Shown: positions 1-51,999 of the stretch, in pieces
How the letters are laid out: the number at the start of each line of letters is the position of its first letter
How positions within the stretch are numbered: the stretch's first letter is position 1
From: Pempheris klunzingeri
Lineage: Eukaryota > Chordata > Actinopteri > Acropomatiformes > Pempheridae
Assembly (NCBI RefSeq): GCF_042242105.1
Contig: NC_092012.1
Coordinates: forward strand, 8,189,470-8,253,469
DNA length: 64,000 nucleotides
Reading direction: 5' to 3'
Translations under genes and position numbers: made by a program
Notes under the pieces: generated by a model
What the model saw: the letters and a program-made list of their open reading frames with translations, nothing else
What the model was told of the DNA's origin: nothing
Databases searched by the model: none

Positions 1-239
1 AAAAAGTGGTGACCAGAACATAACCTCCTTGATTAAGGTTTGCTGAGAGTGTGGCAGTTCAACACAGAACACATTTAATATAACATAACAGAATTAGATT
101 TCATTGTACTAGGGGCACATATGTACAGTGTTTCAAATTATGGTCTTTATTTACCAAGTGAGTTATCCAAAAAAACTAAAAACTTTAAATATACCCGTCG
201 GTTCACAGTAAATGAAAATAAACCCGTATCTTTGCTGTT

Positions 240-254
240 GATGATGATGATGAT
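240..254. repeat. Short (GAT)n tract
   Basis: Four to five GAT units just upstream of the first visible slc30a4 exon. It is a simple repeat with no sign of function. Confidence 0.7.
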
Positions 255-352
255 CTGTATAAACTTGTTTGTTTTGTATTTCAAAATCTGTGCATAAATA
301 ACTTAGCCAGGGCTCAGCAAATAATATTCTTATTGTTGTCTTTTACTCTCAG

Positions 353-3300
353 GTGGTTATGTGTCAAACAGCTTAGCCATTATGACTGATGCTGTGCACA
401 TGCTAGCAGACGTGGTGGGCATTTTGTTTTCTCTGCTGGCCCTCTGGCTCTCCACCAAGCCACCCACCAAAAGGTTCACCTTCGGCCTCCATCGCCTGGG
501 TAAGTCTCAGGTTTCAGAAGCCCACACACTCCCTCTTTCCAGCCCACCTTCCTCAATTTCTTTTGTCCTGTTTGACAGATGTGCTGCATGTAGTTTTGAT
601 GCCGATGAATCATGTTCAAAGAATAAAGTGTGTCTTCAGCAGGGGCTCAAGCCAAATAGGATTTCTGCCACTAATTGATAAATTTAAGTCACTTCAGGTG
701 TTTGTTATATCTTTTATGAGTTGCTGGCCCTTGTGTTTTGTCCCTGTCAGATTAAAGCTGAAGTGAAGAGTGAAATAAAGGCTATGGCCTAATACACAAA
801 TTCCACAACTATCATCCACTATGGAAATGTAGTCTTGTAAATGATGAATTAATGGACAACACTGAAAAAACTTTATTGTGTGAATTTATTGACAAATTTC
901 CTCACTCTGACTCGGGCTTTGTTTTTACAGATAAATGTGCACAGTCTGCATATACGCGCATTGATAACCCTACGTCCACTGGACTAAAATGAAGGCCCTG
1001 CTCTTTATTTACCAGTTGCTGTGGTGACTCGCAGTATGAGAGCTTCACTCATGATGGCTTTTTATAGTTACTTTGAACATGTTTCCATCAGGTTCAACCT
1101 ACTCAGTTGATAGAACAAATTCTGAGCAGAGAGTTCAGTGTTAGGCTCAGAGTTTGTTAAACTGGCTATCTGAAACAGGCTCCTGTCCTGATTTATTAAT
1201 GAGCATCACACTGTTTCAAAACTTCTACAATCACTCACGAAGGAAAGTTACTTTAACTCAAATGCAGAAAAACACAATGTAATTTATGTGTTGATTTTGG
1301 TATAACATTATCAAACATTCGTTTAGCATTTTTTCACAGCGGTTGGATCGTTTAAAGCTTCCCTGGAAGAAGCTAAGTGTCACACAATCGCCTGAAGCAA
1401 ACTAAACAAGATTCATGTAATACACGCTTGATTATACAGATCCGGTTGGCTGAACAGTTACAGTGAAAACAAGAAAAGGTGGAAAAGCGAGTCATTGATA
1501 AAACAGAATAATAGACAACGTCAACAAGACGTTGGCAGAGGACAATCTTTCAAATATTTCAACATTTAGATGACACTGCAGATTATTCCATGAGGAATGC
1601 TGCAGGAACAGTAAATCTGATCTTTGCTAGATCAGATCTGGCATGTGGTTCACAAAGCATCAAGCAGTTACTGCAGCAGGGTAAGAATGCACCAGAGTGT
1701 TGTGATTATCACCAGTTTTGATCATTGCGACAAAATGACAAATGAAATCTAGAAGTGAGAAGGAAACTGCTTCCCAAAGCTCTCTCTACATAGCTTCTGT
1801 TCTGTGCGATACTGTGTTTAAATGTTATATAATTTCTCGTCAGGCTAGATATTTGCAATTTGTGACCCTCTTTTTTGTTTTTGTTAACTGAGATTCATAA
1901 GGGAATCTTTCAGTGTATTCAACTTAAACTGCAGTAGTTTCTCAGTGGATTATCACCAACACAGTGTGAAATTAAATTGTGTTGTCTGCTTAAGTTGAAT
2001 TTGACAGTTACTTGTGAAAAAGACACGGCCGGGACTAATCTGGTTCCCTGTAGAAGCCATAAATTCAACTATATTTGATCAGAAATAACATGTAGCATAG
2101 AGACTACTTTATTATTAGATTCATTTATCTTCCCAATATATCCCACTATTATATGAACGTTATTTTGATATTTGTGAGCAGTTTTTGCCCTGCACTGTTA
2201 AGCTAAACTCCCTACTTATTTAGGCACATTCCTTCTGTCTTAGATTTGCTGTACTTCAGGTTTTTGTCACAGCTATTTCTATTGCTATGACAGTGCTTTG
2301 TACGCACAGCTGATGTGATTTCCTGTCTTAGAGGTGGTATCGGCAGTCCTCAGTGTGGTGCTCATCTACATTCTGACGGCCATACTGCTGTACGAGGCCA
2401 TTCAGAGGACGGTACACCAAGACTTCGACATAGATGGAGATGTCATGCTCATCACTGCAGCTGTGGGGGTGGCTGTCAACCTCATGTAAGCGAGATGCTC
2501 ACGTGTAAAAGTGTGTTTAGAGGAATGAAGTGTGGCGTCAGCAAAAATGTAACAGTAACAGTTCAGTCCAAAGTGCTGTCTAAAATGTGCTCTAAGTTGC
2601 TGTGTGAATGTTTGACCACACATTCATAAATGAAGACTCCCTGACTGCAGTTTCTAAGTCAGTTAAAACATTGCGTAAATTAGACTAAATATATGTAACA
2701 TTATGCCTGAAATAAATCCCCCTTGCTTTGTTTTCTTGTGTCTTTTTAGAATGGGTTTCTTGTTAAACCAAGGTGGTCACCTCCACTCTCACGGCCACGG
2801 TCACTCCCACGGCCCTGCAGCTGCCTCAAGTTCGCAGTCAGCTGGGCCCGGCCCGCAGCAGAGGCCGCACGGCAGCCTGGCTGTAAGAGCCGCCTTCATC
2901 CACGCTTTGGGAGACCTCCTCCAGAGTGTCGGGGTGCTCATAGCCGCCTACGTTGTCCGCTTCAAGGTATCGTGAAGCCGTTTGTTTACAGTGGATGTTA
3001 ACAATTATCCCAGTTTGCTTTTTACGTCACTTCCTCGAACAATTGTTTAGGCAACATTAAAAGTCTTTGAGCTGAAATAACTGATCTCATTTAGAAGACT
3101 AGCTAGATCTTCTTTCTATATATTATTGCATTCAACTGTAAGGTCATTTTGGATGATGTAGTTTGTGGTTTTATTGAATTGTACTACATTATACGGAGAG
3201 GTGTTTATATCAGTTAGCCTACCCTCATTGTTATAATTGGTGTGGACAAAATAACACCTAAAATAACCTTATCCCTCTGTAAAATGCTATACAGCTCAAT

Positions 3301-5861
3301 AGCACCACAAACTACATCCTCCAAAATGACCAAACAGTGGAATCTACACCTCTAAAACAGTTTCAACAAAAATTGAACATCAAAACTTAATAACATCTTT
3401 CTACAAAGGCTCACAAGCACATGTGAACTTTGCCAAAAATACCTTATTGCACTACATGCATTAATTACAGTAACCAACTATGCTCCAAGAAATGTAAAAA
3501 CCTTGGATTATAGTTGATGTGATGTAACCCTCTGACTTCACAGCCGGAGTTTAAGTTGGCGGACCCCATCTGTACGTACATCTTCTCCGTTCTGGTTCTC
3601 TTCACCACATTCCGCATCATACGAGACACGATAGTCATTGTGCTGGAGGGTAAGTCTTTGCTCACGGTCCCGGAGTCCTGTCATAATATGTTTTTAAGTG
3701 TTAGTGTTGTTGTGGTGTCGCTTCATTATGGTGTTGTTCCCATCCTGCTGTGCCAGGTGTTCCCAGGCATCTGGATACTCAGCGAATCAAAGAGGACCTT
3801 CTGAACCTGGAGGACGTGCAGTCAGTCGATGAGCTGAATGTCTGGGCGCTGACCGCCGACAAGACTGCAGCAATAGTGCATATCCAGCTTAGTGAGTAGC
3901 TACATAACATCAACACACCCACTAAGGGAGAGGGATTTCTCAGAATGAGGACATATAATCCTAAACTGTTGTGTGAATTAAAGTCAACTCTGGGATTTAT
4001 ACAGACAAAATAGTAATAGCTGCCCGTATTTATATTTACTCGCTCAGTTTTCTCAAAACAGATTTTTTTCAATCTTCCAATCTATGCATTTTTCACTTTT
4101 TTTTTTTTAAATGAATCCATTTAAAGGAAAATAGTGAAAAACATGCATCACAAGTTACTAAAGCCCCGAGGTGACGTCATCAAGCTGCTTGTCTCTTCTG
4201 AGCAAAAGTCCAAAACACAAAGATATTCAGTTTACACTCTTGAGACCAAGAAGAGCAGCAAATCCTCAAAACAGAAATTGTAACTAGCTGAATCTGGGAT
4301 TCATACATGACTGAAAAATGACTGAAACGAATAATTGATTATCAGAATACTTGCAGATTATTATACTGTTTATTAACTAATCAATTAGTTGCCTCAGCTT
4401 TGATAATGTCACTCACGTATTTATTTAAACAACATTTCTGTATTAAGATTTCAGTAAATAATCAAACAGCCAAGTAAACATTTGTTAGAAATACTGTTAC
4501 AGCTTAAAGTGTTGTTGGATTTGTTTCTCTCGGCTTCGTGCGTCTCGATTCTGGCATGTCATTTGTTTAAAAATGTCTCAAACTCAGTCAAGTTCTATAA
4601 AGAGTGTCCAGGAAACATCTCTCTTCGAGTCTCTCCATAAATCCTCAGGGGAATAAATGTCAGTGTCCTGGCTTAGCTGCTTTTGGCTGGACCACTTTGA
4701 TTTAGACAGATCCTGTGTCGATTTGGCAGTGTGTTAAATGTCAGTGAAAAATGTTTGTCTGAGGTCTTGATCCCTCTGTAACAAGTTCTGCTCTGGAATT
4801 TGCTTGTATTTGGCTTTCGTCTTTGTTTTACCGATGCTGCCACCATCAGGCTTCACAGTAGGGATGATGTTCAGTGGATGATGATGTGATGAGACTTGTT
4901 TTTGCCAAGTATAAAAATGCTGCAGTGGGGCTCAAGACTTCAGCTTTCATTTCATCAGACCACAGAATGTTGTTGCCTCTCATCTCTCAAGAAGCCTCAG
5001 TGCCAGTTCTACCCTTCGCTCTCACCTTAGATCCTCGTACCGTCCATGTTCATGTTAAAAAAAGACAGATCATATTAATGCTAATATGTGTAGATTTCAA
5101 TTCAAGCTGTTGCTCACAAAGTGTTCAGATGGACTTTCTGCAGACTTCCAGAGAGTCTGCTTGGGAGTGCAGACTTTGCTGATTTAATTACCCACAATTC
5201 ATTGCAATACATACATGACGTACTTTTTAAAAATTTTACTTGAATCATCATGATACAAAAATATGTGTAACTGTGAGCTACAGAGGTAATGAAAAATGAA
5301 AAAATGCATTTTATTATTGTAGTCTGTGAGTGATGGTAACCTGTAGCAGCTGTGCAGCGTATGGCCAATTGAAGAAAAATAGTAGAAAACAGCAAAAGAA
5401 GGTCTTTAATGTATGATTGTAGTTGTTGCTAGACTGTTGTGAAACAGACTTGAGGCCTGTCTGTTAAATAGCAGACAGTCTCCTGCCCTCAGATTTCACC
5501 TGATGGCTTAAACACGTCATGGTAGGAATGTTAAAGTCTACGAGGGCTCAGCCCCCAGGTGCCTGAAACTGTTTCCCCTAAATGGAATTCAGTCATCATT
5601 GATTTGATTAATTACACCTGTGTTCTTCCTGTCTGCTGTGAAAAAGGTCTTCTGCTACTCACTCTAAGCTGTTACATTTATAGTTGCATGTATTTTGTGT
5701 TCACAGTGCCCTCTAGTGCCAACAACTGGGAGGACGTCCAGGCGAAGGCCCGCCACCTGCTGCTTCACACCTACGGTCTCACCAGGTGCACCGTGCAGGT
5801 CCAGACACACAGGCTGAGGCTGGTACGCAGCTGTGCGCACTGCCACCAGCCCAGCGCCTAA
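353..5861 (+). CDS. slc30a4: Zinc transporter ZnT4-like, 3' six exons (5' end outside window)
   Basis: Cation diffusion facilitator that moves Zn2+ from cytosol into vesicles in exchange for protons. Six coding exons are visible: 353-499, 2332-2485, 2750-2966, 3544-3649, 3757-3891, 5707-5861 (stop TAA). All have AG/GT borders and phases that close, giving about 304 residues. Human ZnT4 has about 430, so roughly the first 120 residues lie upstream. Visible hallmarks are the two HxxxD zinc sites (HMLAD in the first exon, HALGD in the third), the His-rich cytosolic loop [12 protein letters not shown] (third exon), the MGFLLNQ and ADPICTY helices, and a C-terminal domain ending in a CxxC (CAHC) close to the stop, as in ZnT4. 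Inside NSLAIMTDA the Asn-Ser favours ZnT4 over ZnT2/3/8. The second and fifth introns carry repeats. The subfamily call rests on recall of human sequence and on the human neighbours of the gene. Confidence 0.9.
3129..3344. repeat. Long imperfect inverted repeat (MITE-like hairpin) in slc30a4 intron
   Basis: The segment 3129-3200 reads almost the same as the reverse complement of 3273-3344. Shared blocks include ggtcatttt, gatgtagtttgtggt and attga.ctgta, with roughly four of five bases matching over about 70 nt and a spacer of about 70 nt. Such palindromes with a GTCATTTTGG start are common in teleost introns and 3' UTRs and look like non-autonomous DNA transposons. If transcribed it would fold into a long stem. 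Confidence 0.75.
4100..4405. mobile_element. Decayed teleost interspersed repeat
   Basis: The phrase gtccaaaacacaaagatatt followed about 100 bases on by aatgactgaaacgaataatt and an attaactaatcaattagttg tail is the pattern of a very common fish repeat (the version with AACGATTAATCGATTATC). The copy is diverged and lies in the last slc30a4 intron. I did not assign a family name. Confidence 0.6.
4800..5045 (-). mobile_element. Tc1/mariner transposase remnant
   Basis: On the minus strand, ATTCTGTGGTCTGATGAAA near 4968-4986 corresponds to the transposase block LWSDE(T)K, and catccctactgtgaagcctg followed by atggtggcagcatc near 4832-4867 corresponds to IPTVKxGGGSI. Both are well-known Tc1-family landmarks in the right order and spacing. 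The intervening frame is broken, so it is an inactive relic in the last slc30a4 intron. Confidence 0.6.
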
Positions 5862-8785
5862 AGAGAGAAGGGCTTATTCTCACATTGACTTCCACAGTGC
5901 ATTTCATAGAGGTGAGACGTCAGGGAACAGGGCACACACAGAGAGGGTGGATGTCTCACTGCTGTCACAGCTCAGCGCCGCAGCAGGAGCCACAGCGTTA
6001 GTGGTTATAGGTGGGGAAAAGAGTGGTGCCAAAGGACAGTAGGTGGAACAGCAGCGGATGCACATTTCTAATTAAAGGATCACCATGGCCTCCAGGGACC
6101 TTATGCTCTTACACCTGCAAAGCTTTTCGGAGTGTAATATGAATGCTTAAAGTCTCAGTCGAGAAGAATGAAAAACAAAACTTGCTCTTAATTCACCATT
6201 AAAGCCTATTCCAACTGGTAACTTCTTTTTTTGTATTTTACTGTTTGATTTATCACTTAACTGATGTAAATTTACATTTTTGTTACTGGGTGTGAGGACT
6301 GCACACTAAGATTTAATTATTTTACCAAGGATGTCAAAAAATGAAAAGGTACCTCATGTCATTTAATAATAGCTGTAGTCACAGTGTGTATAAGCTGTAC
6401 TCCTCACATCTGACATAAGCGAGGCAGAAAAAATCTGTTGTTTTCATGTTCCTTTAGTAGACATTACATCTCATCAAATGCACTTAATTCTTAATAATTT
6501 TCAGCCAAAGTCTGCTGTAAGGCAGATTTTTGAGAGCACAACAACCTTAGATATTCTTAAAGCAGTCTATACTGGCTGTACTGAACAACACTGACATTTT
6601 GTTCTAGCATGTCTCTTATTATTTATCGTGAGCAGGCTACTGACAATCAAAGTGTGACTGACTTTGAAGGGTAAATGCTACAGTGTTTGTTCCGACTTCA
6701 GCATGTTTTCAGCCTTACACTCTATACTCAGCTTTGTTTTCAAGTCATTGACAGTATGATAATGCAGACAGGTTTGGGATGTCCACAGTGTATCAGAGTT
6801 ACGGTGTTTTCAGGGAGGGCGGTGTGAGCTGAAATGTGCCAATAATGGTGTTTATAGTGTTTTTTCTGTCAAGTGTTGAGAGGCTGTTGGGGGGTTCATG
6901 GTGAACCTTTCCACGTCTCGGGTATTAATCATCAAGAGAAATCAGGAACTGGATCACTGTTTTTGTTTATAATAAAGTATTACATCTTTTGTGTCTCTCA
7001 GTATCTCGTTTTTTCTGGACAACTTCACGTCAGGACATTGAAACTTTTTATTCTGCAAAATGTATCCACTTATTTCAAGATAAGATATTCCTTTATTTAT
7101 TGTTATTTTCACAATCTATGTGAAAGCTGCACAAATCTGGATAGTTATTTTCCACCAAACTACATTTTGAGAGTGCCTTATTTCAGTTTCCAATCAAAGA
7201 TGTACTTGAATTTAAATGTGAATTTTAAAAGAGGAGAGCGTGAATTTGAGCTGCCTAGTCGGATGCAACAGACTGCACACTGTCATGTTCTGGATATGCT
7301 GCTGTGCTTTTCAACACTAGGTGGTGCACTTCTACAACAGCTGAGAAATTATTTCCATGGCAGGTTCATTTTGATGCGATAACATACATCTGCATGCTTA
7401 TTTCCGTACACTTATTTGTTTGGCGCCTTTGAGATAATGGTGCACACATGGGCTGGACAGTAGCATAAAACACATTTCTGTGTTAAGAGATCGTTTTTTA
7501 CACGAGGAAACTAGTTTTTCTTGCATTATTGGCAAATAAAAGGGGAAAAAAATATGTTTCATACAGCAGGTAAAAACAAATACAACAAGTACATAAATAC
7601 ATTTAGGGCTGAAACTGATCCATACTTAAAAGGAGCGTACTGTACGTATGCACCACATTTGAAACATTCTCATCAACTACTTCCGGCTTTTCATACAAAA
7701 CAAGGTTAATATTACAAATGTAGGCATATCATGGGTTAATTATTGACAACATGAATAGTCTGGGAGTGTCTCAGTTTACAGGCAATGGCCTTGTTAACAT
7801 AAAGCCACTGAACCAAAGGCAGCAACTGCTGTTTTACAGCAGAGCCAATAGCTTAATCCTGCTTTACTTTAGAGTACCATAAACTGTAGCCCTGTCAGTC
7901 ACTAGTATTTGAAAAGAGTTCACTTTCACAAGAGTTTTCAGTTTTCAGAGAGGTTTACATGTTTTCAAAGTTATGAATATGCTTAAATAAAAACACACTT
8001 AAAAAAAATATACCTTCAAAAATGTTTGATTTTCAATATAAACAGGTGCTTCGTCCACACAATCACGTCATCATGTCAAAACATGTCACATTTGTTTGTT
8101 GTCTCACACTAGATATCAATCATAATCAAAACATCGAATCAACATTGACAACTGTACATTGATTTCTGTGGGTATAAAGGAATTCTGTAAACTTTTCGTC
8201 GTTGCTTTTGTAGTAACAATTTAGATGTGATTATAAAGGTGTCGAGAGTCTCGAATTTTTAGGTTTAGGTACCTTGAAAGTGCTTGAGATTTACTTTTAA
8301 GAAGCCGTACGATCCCTGATTGAAATGCCTCAATCAACACGTGTGGAATTTCATCTTCCACTTCTTCTGCATTGTGGGAGCAATACCTGCTTTACTTGCT
8401 GATCACGCGGTCTGTGGTGTCATCTGTGTGTTCATGACTCACGTCACGTACACAAACTCGAGCGACACACATAACATCCTTCCTCTTCTGTCATTGTTTC
8501 CCTAAATAACCCTTCAGTTGCACACCGCTTGCTAAGTCAAATGAAGTTCAGACTGCAGCATGGCCCCCTCTGACCTTACGGTACATTTGACTACATGATA
8601 ACAGAGCACCGAAAATGCCCTCCAGCCATTAAGGGGAAATATTTATCCACAATATTTCCTGTTTACATTCTCCAAAGGTATTAAATGTGACTGGAAAGCA
8701 TCCGTGTAGCAATTTTCTAACACTAAAGAGGACTGAAATGTTTGAAAATGTGACACACCCTTGATGACAGCGACTATACTCATGC

Positions 8786-8820
8786 CTCTCTCTCTCTCTC
8801 ACTCTCTCTCTCTCTCTCTC
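8786..8820. repeat. (TC)n microsatellite
   Basis: About 17 TC units with one interruption. It creates an artificial Arg-Glu repeat frame on the minus strand. Confidence 0.9.
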
Positions 8821-9954
8821 CACATCCTTTATTTAGCGTTTGACAAATTATCAAAAAATCCTTTCAGATTTAAGGTGCAGCCCACAGTCCAGTAGGCTGT
8901 GTAGGCCACACTGCCATGGTCAGCAGCAGGGAGGGTTTTCTGGTGTTTGCGCTCTCCTATGCGATACGAGATACGAGATGGATGTTAAAAGGATTGTCTC
9001 TGATTATGAGACACAATGGGGACGTTGAATGCCCACGCAGCCATAAACTAAGTAGATGAGTACATTTGATCATTGCTTGGATGGCAGTAATTACTTTACA
9101 GCTGTCCTCTCTGGCAACATCTCACCATTGTCAGATCTGCAAAGAACATTCAAACATACGACTACTGAAGTGGCATAGAAATAGAAGAGAGGGAAATAAT
9201 TTTTCACTGAACTATTTTGTTTGGATCTATTATATTTTTCTAATGATTATGTCAGAGGTGCACATATATACTGATAAGACTACAAAGGCAGTTCATCCTC
9301 TGACACCTTGGCAACTGATGAAACTGTTAAAGAATAAACTAGGATAGATTAACACCACAGCATGATGCACCATTGCAGCATGACACATTCATCAACCAGA
9401 CGGCATGGCCAGTCTGCTCTGTCTACTAGACTTTAACCAGGTTAAACGATCAGATGTAACAAAGTTCTCATCTGCTTAACTGTTCAGTTAAACTCACAAC
9501 TATGCATCAAATCCATGCCAGATAATGTGTTGTATTTAAATTATTAGAGTTGTGGATGCAAAGACCATCAACACATTGAGTTTGTCTTTCCCCTGCTGAC
9601 ATTGGACTCTAAGTGGACTCTCAGTGCTTTGCTTTAACTCTGGTGAGCTTTCTGACTACATGTAGACACTGATAGTGGCCGTTATCAGTGTGCATAGACT
9701 CCTGGAGAGGCTGTCTGCGTGATCACTGATAACGCCACGACACGGCCTCACGGACACGTATGAATTTGTTTTTAACTGCGTGAAAATTTGATGTGTGAAA
9801 ATAGTGGTCATGATCGGTGAGTGAGAGCTGGCAGCCCTGTTTTATACATCCTGACCTCTCCGTCCTGTCTGTGGCACTACTCAGCTACAAACCCACCCCT
9901 CTCTACTAAAACAGAAATATTTAGTCTGTCATTTGAGATATATACTGATTTTAT

Positions 9955-10260
9955 GCTGAGAGTTAAAGGAGAAGAACAATACTCCTATATAGATATGAAG
10001 CTAGAGTTAGCAGATTCTAGCTTAGCTTAGCATAGCATAAAGAAATAGGGAAACAGCCCAGCTTTGTCCTCAAGTAACAAAATGTATTTGTTATCATAAT
10101 ATCTGTTTCTTTAATCCAAAAAAGTGTACAAACTAGAGTACAACTAAGTGTTCAACTAAATATGGTGTTAAAGTTACGGCAGGTACATTTTGTTACCTTT
10201 AGATTGAACCAGATTGTTTAAGCTAATGCTAAGCTAAGTGGTTGCTGGCAGTCGTGTCTT
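9955..10260. mobile_element. Teleost SINE/MITE-like repeat with TTAGCTTAGCATA motif
   Basis: The block contains gcttagcttagcatagcata, aaataggg.aaacagcc.agctttgtcc, aagtaacaaaatgta and a distal gctaatgctaagctaag. Together these are the signature of a repeat found in thousands of copies in percomorph genomes. The copy is moderately diverged. Family assignment would need a repeat library. Confidence 0.65.
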
Positions 10261-10919
10261 TTAAAAATGGTTTAAAAAATCGTTTCAATTCTTTTAAAAA
10301 AGGCTCAGTTATTTCTTAAAAGAGTTGGGCACTGCAGTTCTTAGCAAATGTTACTCAAATAGGACTAACAAGTGCACTTGTTTGGGGACTATTTTCAGTG
10401 GTGGATTGGCACACTTTTGGTGCTCTAGTAAGTATGTAGGTTACAGCAGCTGTAACTCTAAAGGACATGTTGGATAGACTCAAAATCAACTATAGTGCCC
10501 GTGTTCATCGTAATGGAAGAGCACTGCATAGAGTGCAATGATGTGGCTCATGTGTGTATTATAGTTTCTAATAGAGATTTCACAGCCAGGTGTAAATAAT
10601 AAAATGAGTGAATTAACTGATTAAATGCATTGATATCTTGTTAATTGTCACAGAAACACCTGTGCAAGTCAAAATGGCAGCAGTGAAGACGGTCAGTAGA
10701 GGTTTCCAGAGTAGAAATCTTAATTTTGCTTTAGTTACACAGCTCCAGCATTTGTTCGGAGGATCAGTTCATTGTTAGCTTTGGTCTTTTCACAAAGAAA
10801 AAAGAAACCGACATCATCCCTTTTGATATGATCAGTGAGTAATGTATTCACATTAAATGAGGGGAAGCAGCAACTCTTCTAGTGAAAATGTTAGCATCAC
10901 ATTTTTAATTCAGACCCAC

Positions 10920-10921
<2 letters not shown>

Positions 10922-10950
<29 letters not shown>
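10922..10950. repeat. (TGA)n microsatellite
   Basis: Nine consecutive trinucleotide units. Confidence 0.9.
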
Positions 10951-11111
10951 CTGAGAGTTCATATTACTATATCACAATTAGCTCTACAAAACAAAGAAAG
11001 AATATCAGCCTAAAGGCCTGAAAATAATGCAAATGTTCATAGCCTACTTCCTTAACTTTTTATAACAAAGGCAACACTGGCGAAGAAAGTAGAGGATAAT
11101 CAAAATAATAA

Positions 11112-11117
11112 TTTATT
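11112..11117 (-). other. Candidate poly(A) signal of nmes1/C15orf48 transcript
   Basis: TTTATT on the plus strand reads AATAAA on the minus strand, about 390 nt after the nmes1 stop codon. If used, it places the miR-147 hairpin inside the last exon, as in human. Confidence 0.5.
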
Positions 11118-11367
11118 GACACTGTACAGTACATTATTTAATGAGTTTACATTTTGCCTTTCACATTTAGACACTATTGTACATTTACATCTACTGCAGC
11201 ACTTGGGTTACTATGACTACCAACTTCCATGTCATATTAAAAACCACAACTTATCCTTTATAAATACAGATCTCCAGCTGTACCCAAAGAAACCCAGAGT
11301 AAGACAACATTGTTTGTGGATGGATGTCCTTGGGCTGGGCCACTACAGAGCAGGGTGAAACCCCACC

Positions 11368-11437
11368 AGTGGAGCAGAAGCATTTCCGCACACTGAGTGT
11401 CAAAGCGTCCTAGTTTGTGCAGAAAGGATTCTGTTAG
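11368..11437 (-). ncRNA. mir147: microRNA miR-147 precursor
   Basis: The minus strand at 11373-11393 reads GTGTGCGGAAATGCTTCTGC plus one base, the miR-147/147b 3p mature sequence as I remember it. The opposite arm at 11408-11427 (CCTTTCTGCACAAACTAGGA) matches the human 5p arm (TTTCTGCACAAACTAG). The two arms pair over about 20 positions with two or three mismatches around a short loop at 11394-11407. It lies 68 nt downstream of the nmes1 stop codon on the same strand. In human, miR-147b is made from the 3' UTR of C15orf48, so both sequence and host position agree. Expression in fish is inferred. Confidence 0.93.
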
Positions 11438-11504
11438 ACTGATGGGGGGCAGGCTGCAGGCAGGTAGTCTCACTGTTGATCTTTCTAGCAGATGCCCATC
11501 TATT

Positions 11505-12331
11505 TCACTTGGTAAGGCTCCTCACGGCCTCCAGCTCCTCGATTGGTTTCCACTGCTGATTGATGGTGATGAGCTGCAGCGAAATGCCAGAATTAAAATT
11601 GAAGCCTCATCTGACCTTTATGCAAGTGAGTTACACTTACAGGTAATGTGAACAGCTGCAGAGCGGACTGTGTCAACATGCAGTATGTGGCAACAAAAAC
11701 ATCATTACTCTGAGATCACAATAGCAGGCTGGTCCTAATTTGATAAGGTTTCTTCCTCAGTGACTCAGCAGACTGAAGCTGTATGCTGGAAGATTCTGCT
11801 CATATTTAAGTGCCAAAAAACAAAAAAGGGCTTATTAACAACCATCTAAACATTATAAATTATGTAATGTTCGGCATGTCAGAGATTACCTTTTGGGATT
11901 TTGATGGATCCACTCTGTCCCATGGTTCTGGGTTTTTGCTCTTATTTAAACTAAAAACCGTGAGTGAAAATGTAATGTCATTATTGAGCATTTCTTGCTG
12001 ATAGAAGTCAGATTTAAGTATGAAAATAGTGCAATTTAAAGCACTTTATATTATAAAATCAATACAAAAAGTACAATAACACTCACATAACATCAGGTTT
12101 AGTAAAGAGAAAGTAGATCGAAGCCGTAGTGGCTCCTGTTGCAGCAAAGCCCACAAACCCTATGAGAGGGATCAGCTGGAAAAAACATGTAAAAATAAGT
12201 GCATCATTATTTTAAATCACATATATTATCCAACATAAGTTCCAATATTCTCAATAAAAATAATCACTTTTAACATTGTAAAAATGGCTCACCTCCTTTT
12301 TCTTTCTCAACATTTGAAAAAATCCAACCAT
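11505..12331 (-). CDS. c15orf48: NMES1/C15orf48 (MOCCI) homologue, 85 aa
   Basis: Human C15orf48 encodes a small inner-membrane protein of cytochrome c oxidase that replaces NDUFA4 during inflammation. Four coding exons: 12293-12331, 12087-12175, 11890-11950, 11505-11573. All have GT-AG borders and closing phases, giving 85 residues (human 83). The N-terminus MVGFFQMLRKKKE precedes a single membrane segment (LIPLIGFVGFAATGATTAS). Then come NPEPWDRVDPSKSQK and LITINQQWKPIEEL, which match the human blocks NPEPWETVDP and LITINQQWKPIEEL. A 5' UTR acceptor sits at 12352 (the exon continues 20 nt before ATG), and a strong donor ending an upstream non-coding exon sits at 12454. The gene is tandem to spata5l1 with under 400 nt between them. 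No exon exceeds 90 coding bases, so simple ORF finding misses it. Confidence 0.95.
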
Positions 12332-12841: not shown

Positions 12842-16950
<4,109 letters not shown>

Positions 16951-16957
16951 CACCGTC

Positions 16958-16960
16958 CAT
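16958..16960 (-). promoter_or_regulatory. Upstream out-of-frame ATG overlapping afg2b start
   Basis: An ATG in the context CTGCTGATGG lies 10 nt before the chosen afg2b start and opens a different frame that runs to about 16790, overlapping the main CDS. If the transcript starts upstream of it, ribosomes could be diverted, which would lower translation of the main frame. Neither the transcription start nor an effect is shown by sequence alone. Confidence 0.4.
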
Positions 16961-19471: not shown

Positions 19472-31494
<12,023 letters not shown>

Positions 31495-48400: not shown

Positions 48401-50085
48401 AGAACTTTTTTAGAAACGGGATCTATAGCACAGGTGTTTTTTTTTATATGATGCCAATATTAATGTTAGACATTTAGGTGTACACTGCAGCTGTAAAAGC
48501 TTTAAAGAAATAACAGTGTGCGTTTCAGGCGTTTTGATTTTTGATGTGAACAATCCTTTGAAATATAAGTTAGAAAAAGTTTGTGTGGTGCAAGAGATGA
48601 GTAAGCCTGTATTTTTGTTAAAGGGACATACGGAATGTGAAGGCCAAAAATAATGCAGCTCCAAGTTTTTCATTTTGGTTTCTTCTTGTTTTTTTTTGCT
48701 CTCTCTTTTTGTAAAAGCAATCAGCTTTCCAGGACTTCTTGTTCACTGCTGCCAAAAAGTATGACTCACTGATTTATTACACACATATATGTATATATAT
48801 CTGCACCACACTAGTCTCTTCAAAGGCTTAGGGTGAAATTTTTCTGTGCTTTTAGCGTGCGATTGTCAGCCACATATGGGTGTATCAATTTTTCTGCCTA
48901 TGACTGCCAATTGTTGCACAAGCATCTTTTCCATCAACTTTGAGGCATTTCCCTGTCAAGCCAACATTCCTGCCACAGCCACACTGTCAGATAGGAGGAA
49001 ATGATAACTACTTAAAACATCCTCACCATGACAGAGACTTCCAGTGGTATCTCAAAACAGGAACTTCGAAAAATGTTGGCTCTAAATCAGCAATTCTAGC
49101 AATTTACCATGATAAATTACAGTTACCGTGGTTAGAAAACACAATTAGCCGTTCATGTGTTAATTGGCATGCGTAATTTGACAGATTTTACTTTCAATTG
49201 TATGGAACAGTGACTTTGGACTAGATGCCGTATGGTGGCTGTCTCTATATGAGACTTCAGTTGTTCATTCTGACACTGTGAGTTTGTGGGGGAGTAAATC
49301 AGGCTGAACAAATGTAAGTCTGTACAGGTGTGAGTCCGAGGTCACAGGGGCCCGGCACCCATCAGTCTCTAAGACCCTTCAGTTTACTTCATTACAGCCT
49401 GTGTTTACATGGTGTTATGGTTTAACAAGCCAAAGCCCCCACCTGCTTCATTTTACCTCTGTCACTTTGGCTGCTCTAACAGAGAGACGCATGACCCATT
49501 AACAGTGTGATTACACTGTAGAGAGCTCCGTATAACAATAACACCTCCCACGTGCTTCTGTCACCTTGACGGGCCAAAGGTTCTTCACTGACTCAGTGGA
49601 AAGATCTCACAGCTAAACTCTGCATGGCCTGCATTTCAACATTTCAAATTCTAGGACTAAGTTCACACAGACATTCAAGTTAATTCCCTTTTAGAAAATA
49701 TATTCTGGCAAATAAGTAGCACTGTTTTAATACTATAAATGCAGTGGATTTCATAGTAAACCGTTTGTTTCATAATTAGACAATCAAAATGATCCTTACT
49801 GTAGCAGTTGGTGGGATCTTGAGTCCCATTGATGTTGCCATTGTCATCAATTGTTAGGAACCATTGCGTGCGGCTGAACAGCTGTCGTATGCGCACATCT
49901 CCTCCCTCCATGTAGTCGTAATTCCTGGTGTGACGCTCGTGTTTTGAGCAGTTCATGATGGCAGCAAGTTGTTCTGGAGTGCAGTCACTGTAGACCACAC
50001 ACACGCTGCCAAACAGGAAGATTGCATGCAGGTACAGTCCCGAGAACAGATTTTGAAGGTTCCATGTCAGCATCCATTTGCGCAT
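45490..50085 (-). CDS. fgf7: Fibroblast growth factor 7 (keratinocyte growth factor), 202 aa
   Basis: Secreted paracrine growth factor; mammalian FGF7 is made by mesenchyme and signals to epithelium through FGFR2b. Three coding exons: 49800-50085, 45895-46001, 45490-45705 (TGA). Phases close to 203 codons, 202 aa (human 194). Residues 1-33 look like a signal peptide (hydrophobic [16 protein letters not shown]). Then come the sequon [25 protein letters not shown] (human differs by few residues), the beta-trefoil with [57 protein letters not shown] and a basic heparin-binding tail [12 protein letters not shown]. The long first intron (about 3.8 kb) and the second intron of 189 bp fit the family pattern. 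Two positions of the usual FGF signature differ (see findings). The C-terminus extends past the human end by a few charged residues. Confidence 0.97.
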
Positions 50086-51999
50086 TATAATACAATGCAG
50101 TGGGGATCAATGAACAACATACTGAAATGTGAGAACGAGATCTGTGCACTATCCCTCGGCCCAGCGACCCCCTGACTTGTGGCCCTTGTGTTGTGACCTC
50201 CAGGACCGTGATCCTGCAGCAGGGACTCCTAGTGGAACGTTGAGACACAGTGGTTGTGGAGGAGACTTTGTTATGCCGGTTGTGGTTAGCTGAAGCTTGA
50301 GAGCGGTGTGAAAAAGAGGACAGGTGACAGTATTATGAGATGATGTCTCTCAATCCTTTAGTCCTCAGTGATGGTGTGCGCTGACTGCTCCATCCTCTTG
50401 AGACCATCGTCAGACACAAGTCATAATCCAGTTCAGGAAATGTTGTTCAGGATATGTCTACAAAAAAAAAAAAATGCAGACCTGATTGATTCTAGGTAAC
50501 ACAATTGGAAAAAATAATTATACTCACTACACTTAGAAGTTGAAAGATTTTTGTTTAAGCATCTTCAAAAAAGGAATTAAATCATTACTGGGATTCACTC
50601 AGTTCTATTTAAGAGCTCCTATAAATTTTCAAACAACTTTCAAAGAGCGTAGCAGTAAATCAGCATTTCTGTGGCATACTTTGACAGGCATATGCTGCCC
50701 TGTCATACACCCAGAACAGTGAAATATTGCATCAATGCTGTTGGATACATACACTATGTATTTTCAAACAAGCAAACCATGCTGCTCTTCTTGTAAAGAT
50801 TAAAATCTGTAGTTTAATGACTTACATGTGCTCTGAGTGATGACAGGAGTTGTCAGAGATGTGTTCCCTCTCAGCAAAAGTTTTAATTTGAAGACTCTTG
50901 AGTTCTAAAGCTGTAGTCTCAGTTGTAAACCAAGCCCAGTAATGCAGTAAACCTAAGCAAGAGCTGGGAGCTTCTGTCAATTCCCATGGATGTCTCCCTG
51001 ATTCTGGCAGGCTGACTCTGTGCATCTTCCACTGTCGCTGTGCACTCTGCTTAGATAAATGCCTCCTGCTGACCTCACTTGAGAGCAATTAGATCCCAAC
51101 CAGTCAGCTGTCCCTGGCTGAGATGCAATGGAGAAACACCCTCTGCCTGCCTCTCACTGTTTCTCACCCACTGGACATGAGAGGGAGCTATAAACTCTTA
51201 GAATAGCAGGTTCTCCCTGGTATGCACTTCTAAATACTTTAAGAACATTTGCATGCACGCTCACTTGCAGAACTTACTACATCCTTTTCCAGGAAACATC
51301 ATGCACTTAAATAGGTTTGTGCTGTGCCTGTTACAGAACTCACAGTGACTCACATTCATTTAATTGATGGCTAAGCTATTTGTCCTAATGACAAAGCTTT
51401 AAGGAATTTCTTCCCTGTCATTTTAAATGTCACAATTAATTAGTGGTTTGACTTAGCTGCCCTGAATCATTGGTAAGGATTTATTGACTCAAGTTAAAAA
51501 AAACTTCAAAGAAGCCCTTCAGTTCTCATTCTTATTGAGTGTAATAGTAGGAAGCAATAAGTTATGCTTGGCAGTTATCTATTCAAGCAGAGAAAAACAG
51601 AGGACATAACTGCTCAGAAGTAGTCATCACTGTGTCAGGGGTCATGCACTCTTTCACTTTTTGTGTTTGTATTTAAAGTCACAATTTATTGCCTTGCATA
51701 CCTGGCCTTTCCTTGTACTCGCTACTTCAAAAGTTTATATGGGCCCTAATGATGCGCTCCCCTGGGGAGGTCAGGGCTGCAGACCTGAGAGAGAGGGACT
51801 TCTGGCCGCAGCAGGTCTCCTTCTCATCTCTAAACAGGGGGTCGTAAAACCCTGATCTATTAGGTGTCACTCTGGCCTGTTCATTTGTCCCTTCTATCAC
51901 CTCAGAGACAGTTCAAACTCTGGTCTTTTGAACGCATAGGCCAAGGAAATATTACTTAGCTGATCACTTCAGGCAGCAGCTATATTACAAATACCAGAG
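50086..51999. other. fgf7 upstream region, promoter not resolved
   Basis: This must contain the fgf7 5' UTR and promoter if the ATG at 50085 is in the first coding exon. I see no clear TATA box or further coding exon. Open frames such as 49985-50248 (-) overlap the start in another frame and look incidental. Confidence 0.4.

Follow-up and report, generated by a model that had tools for sequence, protein, structure and literature searches.

In light of an initial annotation that had placed a C15orf48/MOCCI homologue and the microRNA miR-147b on a single transcript, and had dated their pairing to before the fish-tetrapod split, we asked whether a stretch of 64,000 nucleotides from Pempheris klunzingeri (the window) carries the fish counterpart of this gene, and what its two products would do. 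The reading frame of a small protein, its domain, a microRNA hairpin, the sequence of its mature arm and the neighbouring genes are seen directly in this DNA. Since a B12D protein is accompanied by a mir-147 hairpin past its stop codon and by a zinc transporter and afg2b as neighbours, the gene in question is very probably the orthologue in fish of C15orf48, also named MOCCI, NMES1 or MISTRAV. With a probability of about 0.93, we consider it to be this orthologue, from which one mRNA would give rise to both a B12D protein replacing NDUFA4 and miR-147-3p repressing ndufa4.

The candidate coding sequence comprises 258 nt including the stop codon and is distributed over four coding exons on the minus strand, whose ends were picked by eye from the genomic sequence. 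The first exon (12331-12293, 39 nt) contains the start codon and is followed by the splice donor gtgagc, the second (12175-12087, 89 nt) lies inside the B12D domain, the third (11950-11890) spans 61 nt and the coding part of the fourth (11573-11505) terminates with the stop codon at 11507-11505. All three predicted introns are of the GT-AG type, with phases 0, 2 and 0. The encoded protein of 85 residues contains a B12D domain at residues 9-61 (Pfam, 77.5 bits, E 4.9e-22), and we thus recover, as a four-exon frame, the homologue of 85 amino acids that had been claimed for the minus strand. A protein of this size with one B12D domain is what would be expected of C15orf48/MOCCI, although the domain on its own is not diagnostic since it is common to NDUFA4 and NDUFA4L2 too (PMC8035321). 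A search of NCBIfam with the 85-residue peptide returned no family. Viral homologues of MISTR proteins have been described (Sorouri 2020, PMC7793259); when viral_contigs was scanned with six short peptides, none of the 16 pattern matches was confirmed by tblastn, which, coming from one scan, is weak evidence.

Downstream of the stop codon and on the same strand, in the order and orientation proposed initially, we find the mir-147 precursor hairpin (11444-11364). The Rfam family RF00693 (mir-147) matches this region over its entire model (positions 1-78 of 78) with 71 bits (E 1.4e-14; gathering score 57) and is the sole Rfam family to reach its gathering score in the 64-kb window. If folded alone, the region 11450-11350 yields -36.5 kcal/mol compared to a mean of -24.1 kcal/mol in shuffled sequences (sd 3.06, z -4.05), with none of 200 shuffles folding as well, and its predicted stem reaches 11447-11361; the folding that the initial annotation had suggested as a check has thus come out in its favour. 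The mature miR-147-3p would occupy 22 nt at 11393-11372, where 21 of 22 positions, including the entire seed, equal the Rfam consensus and the last is a C instead of an A, as it is also in a flounder sequence and in oni-miR-147. On the 5p side, a stretch of 26 nt differs from the consensus at four positions. With the ends of the 5p arm (miR-147 star) assumed to be at 11433-11412, the stop codon is separated from this arm by 71 nt and from the extended stem by 57 nt, and the distance of 68 nt given previously is therefore approximately right.

A shared transcript would require its 3' end to lie beyond the hairpin. In a search for 12 poly(A) signal hexamers within 520 nt after the stop codon we encountered five occurrences, namely AATAGA at offset 0, TATAAA at 11262, ATTAAA at 11142, AATAAA at 11117 and TATAAA at 11064. 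AATAGA, a weak variant located directly after the stop, is the only one of the 12 hexamers found between stop codon and hairpin and counts against a shared transcript that bears the hairpin. The AATAAA on the minus strand at 11117-11112, located 387 nt after the stop, would be the likely poly(A) signal.

The assignment is further informed by the surrounding genes. A Pfam scan of the six frames of positions 1-11000, two of which gave matches, detected Cation_efflux pieces at 340-498 and 2328-2969 and a ZT_dimer piece at 3762-3899, the latter with 22.4 bits below the cut-off of 26.7, all on the plus strand. Together they point to a zinc transporter at 340-3899 that converges on C15orf48 and is probably slc30a4, a name that we infer from these matches. 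Upstream of C15orf48 and on the same strand resides afg2b, with AFG2B (SPATA5L1) being the best PDB match for the minus-strand reading frames 13784-14194 and 16339-16959. In human, C15orf48 is located between SPATA5L1 (AFG2B) and SLC30A4 with the same relative orientations. The window shows the human order of zinc transporter, C15orf48 and afg2b, and the locus is therefore very probably orthologous. Farther away, the plus-strand segment 21884-22300 shows a partial match to the NCBIfam model pntA (82.7 bits, below the model cut-off of 444.4), and probably represents an exon of nnt, the gene for the mitochondrial transhydrogenase; the frame 25266-25772, suspected to be a second nnt exon, had no match in NCBIfam. 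Similarly, an NCBIfam search gave nothing for the minus-strand frame 49675-50106, which in our estimation resembles fgf7.

If the gene functions like its mammalian counterpart, one C15orf48 mRNA would encode the 85-residue B12D protein and contain the hairpin in its 3' UTR. Within cytochrome c oxidase, the protein would substitute for its paralogue NDUFA4, and the hairpin would yield miR-147-3p, which in turn would repress the ndufa4 mRNA, so that the induction of a single gene would drive the subunit swap in two ways. By the rules of seed pairing, the best target of GUGUGCGG... is CCGCACA followed by A, and we correct the CGCACAC-type site of the initial annotation accordingly. The sequence CCGCACAA is found on neither strand of the 64-kb window, in which CCGCACA occurs four times, once as antisense of the microRNA itself (11386, plus strand), and we claim no significance for these occurrences. 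The single transcript, its inflammatory induction, the replacement of the protein and the repression of ndufa4 would be expected in this fish by analogy with mammalian work, and processing of the microRNA is presumed likewise. Work in human cells has shown that NDUFA4 is displaced from complex IV by the C15ORF48 protein and that miR-147b reduces NDUFA4 at both the mRNA and the protein level (PMC8035321, PMC8654286). Against a tight partnership stands the statement that MOCCI can bring about the protein switch on its own (Lee 2021, PMC8035321), in a study that also doubted the miR-147b site of chicken Ndufa4. As the inducing signals differ between human and mouse (Clayton 2021, PMC8654286), induction in fish cannot be assumed.

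Some of the described features would also suit a coding part that is an additional copy of ndufa4 or ndufa4l2 instead of C15orf48. The B12D domain would be the same, and a PDB search with the 85-residue protein returned four sequences at E <1e-8, all of them NDUFA4 chains (E 1.1e-9 to 8.6e-9), one of which is identical in 23 of 67 aligned columns; this kinship with NDUFA4 speaks for C15orf48 as well. The resulting 34% is slightly above the less than 30% given for the human C15ORF48-NDUFA4 pair, a value that stems from a different alignment (Clayton 2021, PMC8654286). This comparison of proteins is one-sided, though, because the named PDB matches include no C15orf48 chain, and the mir-147 hairpin following the stop and the neighbouring zinc transporter and afg2b both argue against a further ndufa4 copy, which we regard as highly improbable.

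A different objection accepts the shared transcript and concerns its microRNA, which might act mainly on targets other than ndufa4, whose site would be kept for miR-210. Such a role of miR-210 was suggested for zebrafish, where the site is kept but perhaps not the microRNA (Sorouri 2020, PMC7793259). It would be facilitated by a six-base seed that miR-210 and miR-147b have in common (PMC3441733) and is compatible with the expectation of Lee 2021 (PMC8035321) that miR-147b has roles beyond the switch. Conversely, the 8-mer site for miR-147b in NDUFA4 is conserved to fish and is present twice in certain species, gar and medaka among them (Sorouri 2020, PMC7793259). We consider this reading unlikely and favour a repression of ndufa4 by miR-147-3p. 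Two checks named in the initial annotation have in part been addressed by published work on other fish, namely miR-147 sites in ndufa4 by this 8-mer and small-RNA reads by the listing of miR-147 or miR-147* for halibut, flounder and icefish (PMC3398304, PMC8003733, PMC11209021).

The observation on this locus is correct, but the pairing and its evolutionary depth were already published in 2020-2021. In coelacanth and six ray-finned fish, Clayton 2021 (PMC8654286) found that C15orf48 mRNAs contain the miR-147b sequence, with at most two differences and none in the seed, and inferred that selection has acted for over 450 million years, and miR-147b is identical between human and spotted gar (Sorouri 2020, PMC7793259). 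The proposed origin before the fish-tetrapod split is in this way supported by existing literature, and a gene encoding a protein side by side with a microRNA that represses the paralogue of this protein would be an arrangement older than that split. Since in zebrafish the peptide gene is kept and miR-147b may be nonfunctional (Sorouri 2020, PMC7793259), not every teleost has the pair. It is conceivable, and we propose it tentatively, that the two parts are separable in teleosts, with the microRNA perhaps lost in zebrafish and both kept here, in which case fish would offer a natural test of the contribution of the microRNA to the protein swap.

The window thus provides one more probable teleost instance of a known bifunctional gene and not a discovery. 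Among fish, its 3p arm agrees by eye in 22 of 22 nt with oni-miR-147, for which a table on icefish gives counts (PMC11209021). It agrees in 21 of 22 with the flounder miR-147-y, which a study of spleen lists in what seems to be a table of primers (PMC8003733). For Atlantic halibut, a miR-147 precursor was obtained from an EST, with reads of miR-147* (PMC3398304). The passages of these sources that concern the halibut, flounder and oni-miR-147 sequences do not mention a host gene, and a literature search on croaker contained no paper on fish miR-147 among the matches listed. Two further papers proved unrelated, their single hits being a reference title on miR-147a (PMC9926789) and odi-mir-1473 (PMC4390885). 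In human, C15orf48 likewise encodes a small B12D protein, with 83 residues compared to 85 here (PMC8654286). Its microRNA also resides past the stop codon, in the fourth exon (PMC8654286, PMC3441733), as already stated in 2012 for miR-147b and exon 4 of NMES1 (PMC3441733), which would correspond to the predicted fourth coding exon of the fish gene. The seed is the same here as in the mir-147 consensus, from which the mature 3p arm departs only in its final base.
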